A stretch of DNA of 17,593 bases from Candidatus Altarchaeum sp. GTDB lineage: Archaea > Altiarchaeota > Altiarchaeia > Altiarchaeales > Altiarchaeaceae. Positions 14,029 through 16,893 of this stretch are shown here, in pieces (within the stretch, counting starts at the first letter, position 1; every line of letters begins with the position of its first letter). The DNA is taken from assembly GCA_018260755.1 (NCBI GenBank), contig JAGTWP010000028.1, positions 1 through 17,593 on the forward strand. The letters run 5' to 3'. The notes beneath the pieces were generated by a model. That model was not told the origin of the DNA, did no database searches, and saw only the letters and a list, made by a program, of their open reading frames with translations. Position numbers and translations under genes: made by a program.

Positions 14029-16893
<2,865 letters not shown>

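Follow-up and report, generated by a model that had tools for sequence, protein, structure and literature searches.

The 23S rRNA gene of the uncultured archaeon Candidatus Altarchaeum carries cytosine at both E. coli positions 2503 and 2504 of the peptidyl transferase ring. Judged by sequence comparison, this is very probably the normal working rRNA of the genus, in which a naturally fixed C2503-C2504 (CC) replaces A2503-U2504. The best reading of the pair is a lineage-specific variant, fixed and functional, of a kind that recurs in archaea. The gene lies on a contig of 17,593 nucleotides that was analysed whole (the window) and has the following features:

12107..13572, forward strand: 16S rRNA gene, in the same operon as the 23S (Rfam RF01959, 1407 bits)
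13681..13752, forward strand: tRNA-Ala(TGC) in the 16S-23S spacer
14018..16905, forward strand: complete archaeal 23S rRNA gene (Rfam RF02540, 2385.5 bits, model 1-2987)
16511..16521, forward strand: H89-H90 strand of the peptidyl transferase ring, CTCGCCGTCGG, E. coli 2499-2509 (rrlH alignment)
16515..16515, forward strand: C at E. coli 2503 (A2503C), common to the whole class
16516..16516, forward strand: C at E. coli 2504 (U2504C), which arose on the genus stem

In the E. coli rrlH alignment, positions 2503 and 2504 fall at window 16515 and 16516. Together with the archaeal LSU match, the alignment bears out the preliminary description, which had placed CC here in this register with G2502 and G2505 kept. 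The string CTCGNNGTCGG has a single match in the window, where chance alone would give 0.01. In addition to the two flanking guanosines, the catalytic-core bases A2451, C2452, U2506, G2553, U2585 and A2602 are intact and canonical in the rrlH alignment, and the match to the archaeal LSU model is full length, as in a functional archaeal 23S rRNA. Over the 263 columns conserved at ≥97% in archaea, the window gene departs at one (T2092G), the same as the sample median, so it is not decaying; this count rules out a pseudogene or decaying copy. It is the only 23S copy in the source genome (1.32 Mb).

The same CC is present in two congeners, Candidatus Altarchaeum sp. CG2_30_32_3053 (G002, MNZY01000038.1; 23S parts 95-96% identical to the window) and sp. 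HURL_140 (G003, JAGWDQ010000136.1; 23S parts 98.6% identical). The pair is therefore fixed among the Altarchaeum genomes that include a 23S, three in all; a fourth genome of the genus has no 23S match. The comparison with close relatives that the preliminary description had proposed thus recovers the pair in independently assembled genomes. That description had also entertained a sequencing or assembly error, and the window is indeed a whole contig (contig 61) of a fragmented MAG (78 contigs). We reject this option: because two separately assembled congeners, 1.4% and 4-5% divergent, carry CC, error is excluded for practical purposes. One of these contigs has 'cov_2606.02' in its title (labelled 2606x coverage), and the remainder of the window 23S is intact. 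It is vanishingly improbable that a single contig acquired the pair through faulty sequencing, assembly or binning.

All other readable 23S sequences of the class Altiarchaeia (n=16), the sister family included, read TTCGCTGTCG, that is, C2503 with U2504 (CT), which, with the fixation of CC in the genus, supports the earlier suggestion of a lineage-specific active-site variant. We built a maximum-likelihood tree from 119 sequences after removing columns 2503 and 2504; in it the genus (support 100) is sister to the rest of the class, on a long stem (0.31 changes per column) that no intermediate lineage breaks. Since C2503 is common to all other readable Altiarchaeia, A2503C came first; it is older and class-wide, and U2504C followed on the long Altarchaeum stem, which is the simplest history. 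What had been described as a double substitution is therefore double in that both bases are changed, but it is not a single event. Three Altiarchaeia (L007, L012, L013) also carry G2509A (GTCGA for GTCGG) right after the motif. In other Altiarchaeia (G011, G016, G019) the 23S match is split near the peptidyl transferase centre (PTC) by inserts of ~140-180 bases, probably rRNA introns. One MAG (G028) has two extra AT-type 23S copies (L048, L049) that group with Woesearchaeota in the tree; these are probably contaminant contigs, in a MAG that is 6% contaminated.

Across Archaea, a loose pattern around the site was readable in 90 of 188 sampled genomes, of which 47 have AT, 37 CT, 4 CC and 2 AC; by family (n=42), the same pattern gives 21 AT, 17 CT, 2 CC and 2 AC. 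C2503 is thus found in 41 of the 90 genomes, Thermococcaceae among them (family f12, assigned by its uL3, which matches that of T. kodakarensis over the full length; 6SKF chain BD, E 1.9e-218), and C2504 occurs in many lineages. The statement that the canonical bases are close to universal fails within Archaea. A base other than U at 2504 is present in at least 12 of 394 sampled genomes, a lower bound because about half of the genomes lack the pattern altogether. We also scanned named genomes, which reports presence and no frequency, about half of the listed matches being chance hits in coding DNA. Among the matches listed, C2504 appears in Thermoplasmata, Archaeoglobales, Ignisphaera/Sulfolobales/Desulfurococcales, Diapherotrites, Woese-, Pace- and Nanoarchaeota, and the CC pair, again among the matches listed, in Thermoplasmata, Diapherotrites, Pace- and Woesearchaeota.

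On the 119-sequence tree, whose sample is enriched for C2504, the fewest changes required are 16 at 2504, 14 at 2503 and 7 for CC versus not-CC, counts that are blind to gain versus loss; a careful tree and a quick tree agree on those for 2504 and 2503. The 2503 change, the 2504 change and the CC pair therefore recur in unrelated archaeal lineages, in different second-shell backgrounds, as a recurrent natural variant would. A search of a plasmid collection returned distant haloarchaeal rRNA only. At position 2452, C2452U (TAAT for TAAC) is natural in ten archaeal 23S sequences (L024, L049, L063, L064, L119, L135, L153, L208, L209, L213), and the tree requires 7 or more changes there; a literature table lists C2452 as 100% conserved.

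Published sources put the conservation of 2503 and 2504 at about 98.3-98.4% and describe 2504 as conserved in all domains (PMC7345174, PMC10146877). Archaeal 23S rRNA nevertheless shows repeated natural change at both of these supposedly highly conserved positions. Literature searches on U2504C in archaea, on Altiarchaeum 23S and on 2504 with Thermoplasma found no paper on the CC variant, and we found no description of this recurrent kind of archaeal PTC variation in the papers searched. Altiarchaeia, Thermococcaceae and many DPANN share A2503C in an otherwise canonical PTC, but these A2503C archaea keep U2504, unlike Altarchaeum. Thermococcaceae are a lineage with solved ribosomes. The CC pairs of Thermoplasmata, Diapherotrites, Pace- and Woesearchaeota are identical to that of Altarchaeum, with G2502 and G2505 likewise kept, yet they have independent origins and most are accompanied by A2055 and by other bases at 2453 and 2499. 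The A-loop changes U2554C/U2555C of Thermoproteota (Nissley et al. 2023, PMC9976906) are also natural, lineage-patterned and tolerated pyrimidine changes in the PTC, but they lie at other positions, are linked to heat stability and were tested in E. coli; the main text of that paper contains no discussion of 2503 or 2504. Bacterial drug-resistance mutants of U2504 and A2503 affect the same positions, U2504C included (PMC7345174), but they are laboratory selections, whereas the Altarchaeum pair has been fixed over deep divergence.

We compared the tip of the uL3 finger, which reaches towards the active site, by motif extraction and by phmmer alignment to solved uL3. The tip is altered in all four Altarchaeum genomes, where it reads RRHCPLNPVTP versus RRHIGTGGAWTP in the majority of the class; G000 (L267) and G001-G003 (L268-L270) show the variants CPLNPV, SPINPV and CPINPV. 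The alignment places Val opposite the T. kodakarensis fingertip Trp, with one residue missing. In yeast, no amino acid lies closer to the PTC than the corresponding uL3 residue W255, and the W255C change confers resistance to anisomycin and trichodermin (PMC7797049). Trp loss is no general explanation of C2504, because the residue is kept in five readable C2504 genomes (G190, G198, G232, G280, G363) and absent from the U2504 genomes G031, G037, G053, G102, G118 and g11. Loss does not follow C at 2504, nor retention U, and uL3 compensation as a general rule is ruled out. No uL4 gene was found next to uL3 in the genus.

Compensation elsewhere in the rRNA fared no better. Across all variable numbered columns, with 13 phylogenetically independent pairs on well-supported branches, none covaries significantly with C2504 (1537 tests, best median p 0.06), although the power of this test is low. 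Of the compensating change that the preliminary description anticipated, the uL3 tip alteration is present in the genus; it does not track with C2504 elsewhere, and no significant rRNA covariation accompanies it.

These observations bear on whether the Altarchaeum site has been remodelled as a unit, with C2504 functionally coupled to the uL3 tip and to A2453, C2499, A2056 and C2575 in a distinct A-site geometry. Altarchaeum differs from the rest of the class in the PTC ring and second shell at A2056, A2453, C2499, C2511, A2571 and C2575, and the uL3 tip and second-shell changes fall on the same stem as C2504. Archaeal and eukaryotic U2504 is described as stacking on A2055 (PMC5154188, PMC7555685), and C2055, the bacterial state, holds throughout the class, so U2504 may not stack in this way there. 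We nonetheless consider such coupling unlikely. Co-occurrence on the Altarchaeum stem is weak evidence because 87 columns differ between genus and class over the same aligned segment, the covariation test yielded no significant partner, and A2055 and the fingertip Trp are present in other archaea with C2504. It is similarly doubtful that archaea explore C2503-C2504 chemistry in general and that Altarchaeum couples it with uL3 Trp loss into a distinct, intrinsically drug-resistant PTC. If that were true, the archaeal alternative at the A-site cleft and tunnel mouth would be one that looks unfavourable from the mutational data on bacteria.

Adaptation to a peptidyl-transferase inhibitor, which the preliminary description had also proposed, would have C2504 and uL3 Trp loss together confer resistance to environmental A-site cleft drugs. 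Altarchaeum does combine C2504 with Val at the residue whose substitution makes yeast resistant, and in T. thermophilus, where U2504C and A2503G mutants are viable, three of three U2504 substitutions tested give chloramphenicol resistance (PMC7345174). U2504C, however, brings no tiamulin resistance in the same organism (PMC7345174), and Trp loss and C2504 occur apart. The pair is also not recent or polymorphic against sensitive close relatives, CC being fixed in the genus and C2503 in the class, and many unrelated archaea carry the same bases. Neither a source of inhibitor nor a linked resistance gene came up in the course of these comparisons. We found no positive support beyond analogy for an inhibitor as the cause and regard it as very improbable.

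The fixed archaeal variant is most economically explained as drift that the archaeal context tolerates, perhaps with some local fine-tuning in Altarchaeum. Positions 2503 and 2504 would line the A-site cleft and tunnel entrance without being catalytic. A2503 belongs to the 2058-2063 stack, and C2503 would remove a purine from it, leaving the tunnel mouth slightly wider. C2504 would keep the size and sugar-phosphate path of U while exchanging one carbonyl for an amino group, which may alter the non-canonical contacts to C2452 and G2447 that U2504 makes in bacteria (PMC5154188, PMC7555685). If archaeal ribosomes tolerate both bases, the pair could drift under weak constraint, and the changes to A2453, C2499, A2056, C2575 and in the uL3 fingertip, which share the Altarchaeum stem with U2504C, may fine-tune the pocket. 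Neutrality of CC is not obvious, because measurements in tethered E. coli ribosomes found the epistasis of U or C at 2503 with position 2504 to be strongly negative (PMC10146877). The natural CC pairs are a useful counter-example to that measurement, and the archaeal variants offer ready natural tests of the limits of active-site variability and of why A-site-cleft drugs discriminate between domains.

Elsewhere in the window, translations inspected by eye revealed two adjacent small ORFs on the reverse strand (343-998) that look like a VapBC-type pair of PIN-domain toxin and AbrB-like antitoxin. An ORF on the forward strand (3684-4973), also judged by eye, resembles a hexulose-6-phosphate synthase/OMP-decarboxylase-type domain fused to an RraA-like domain.
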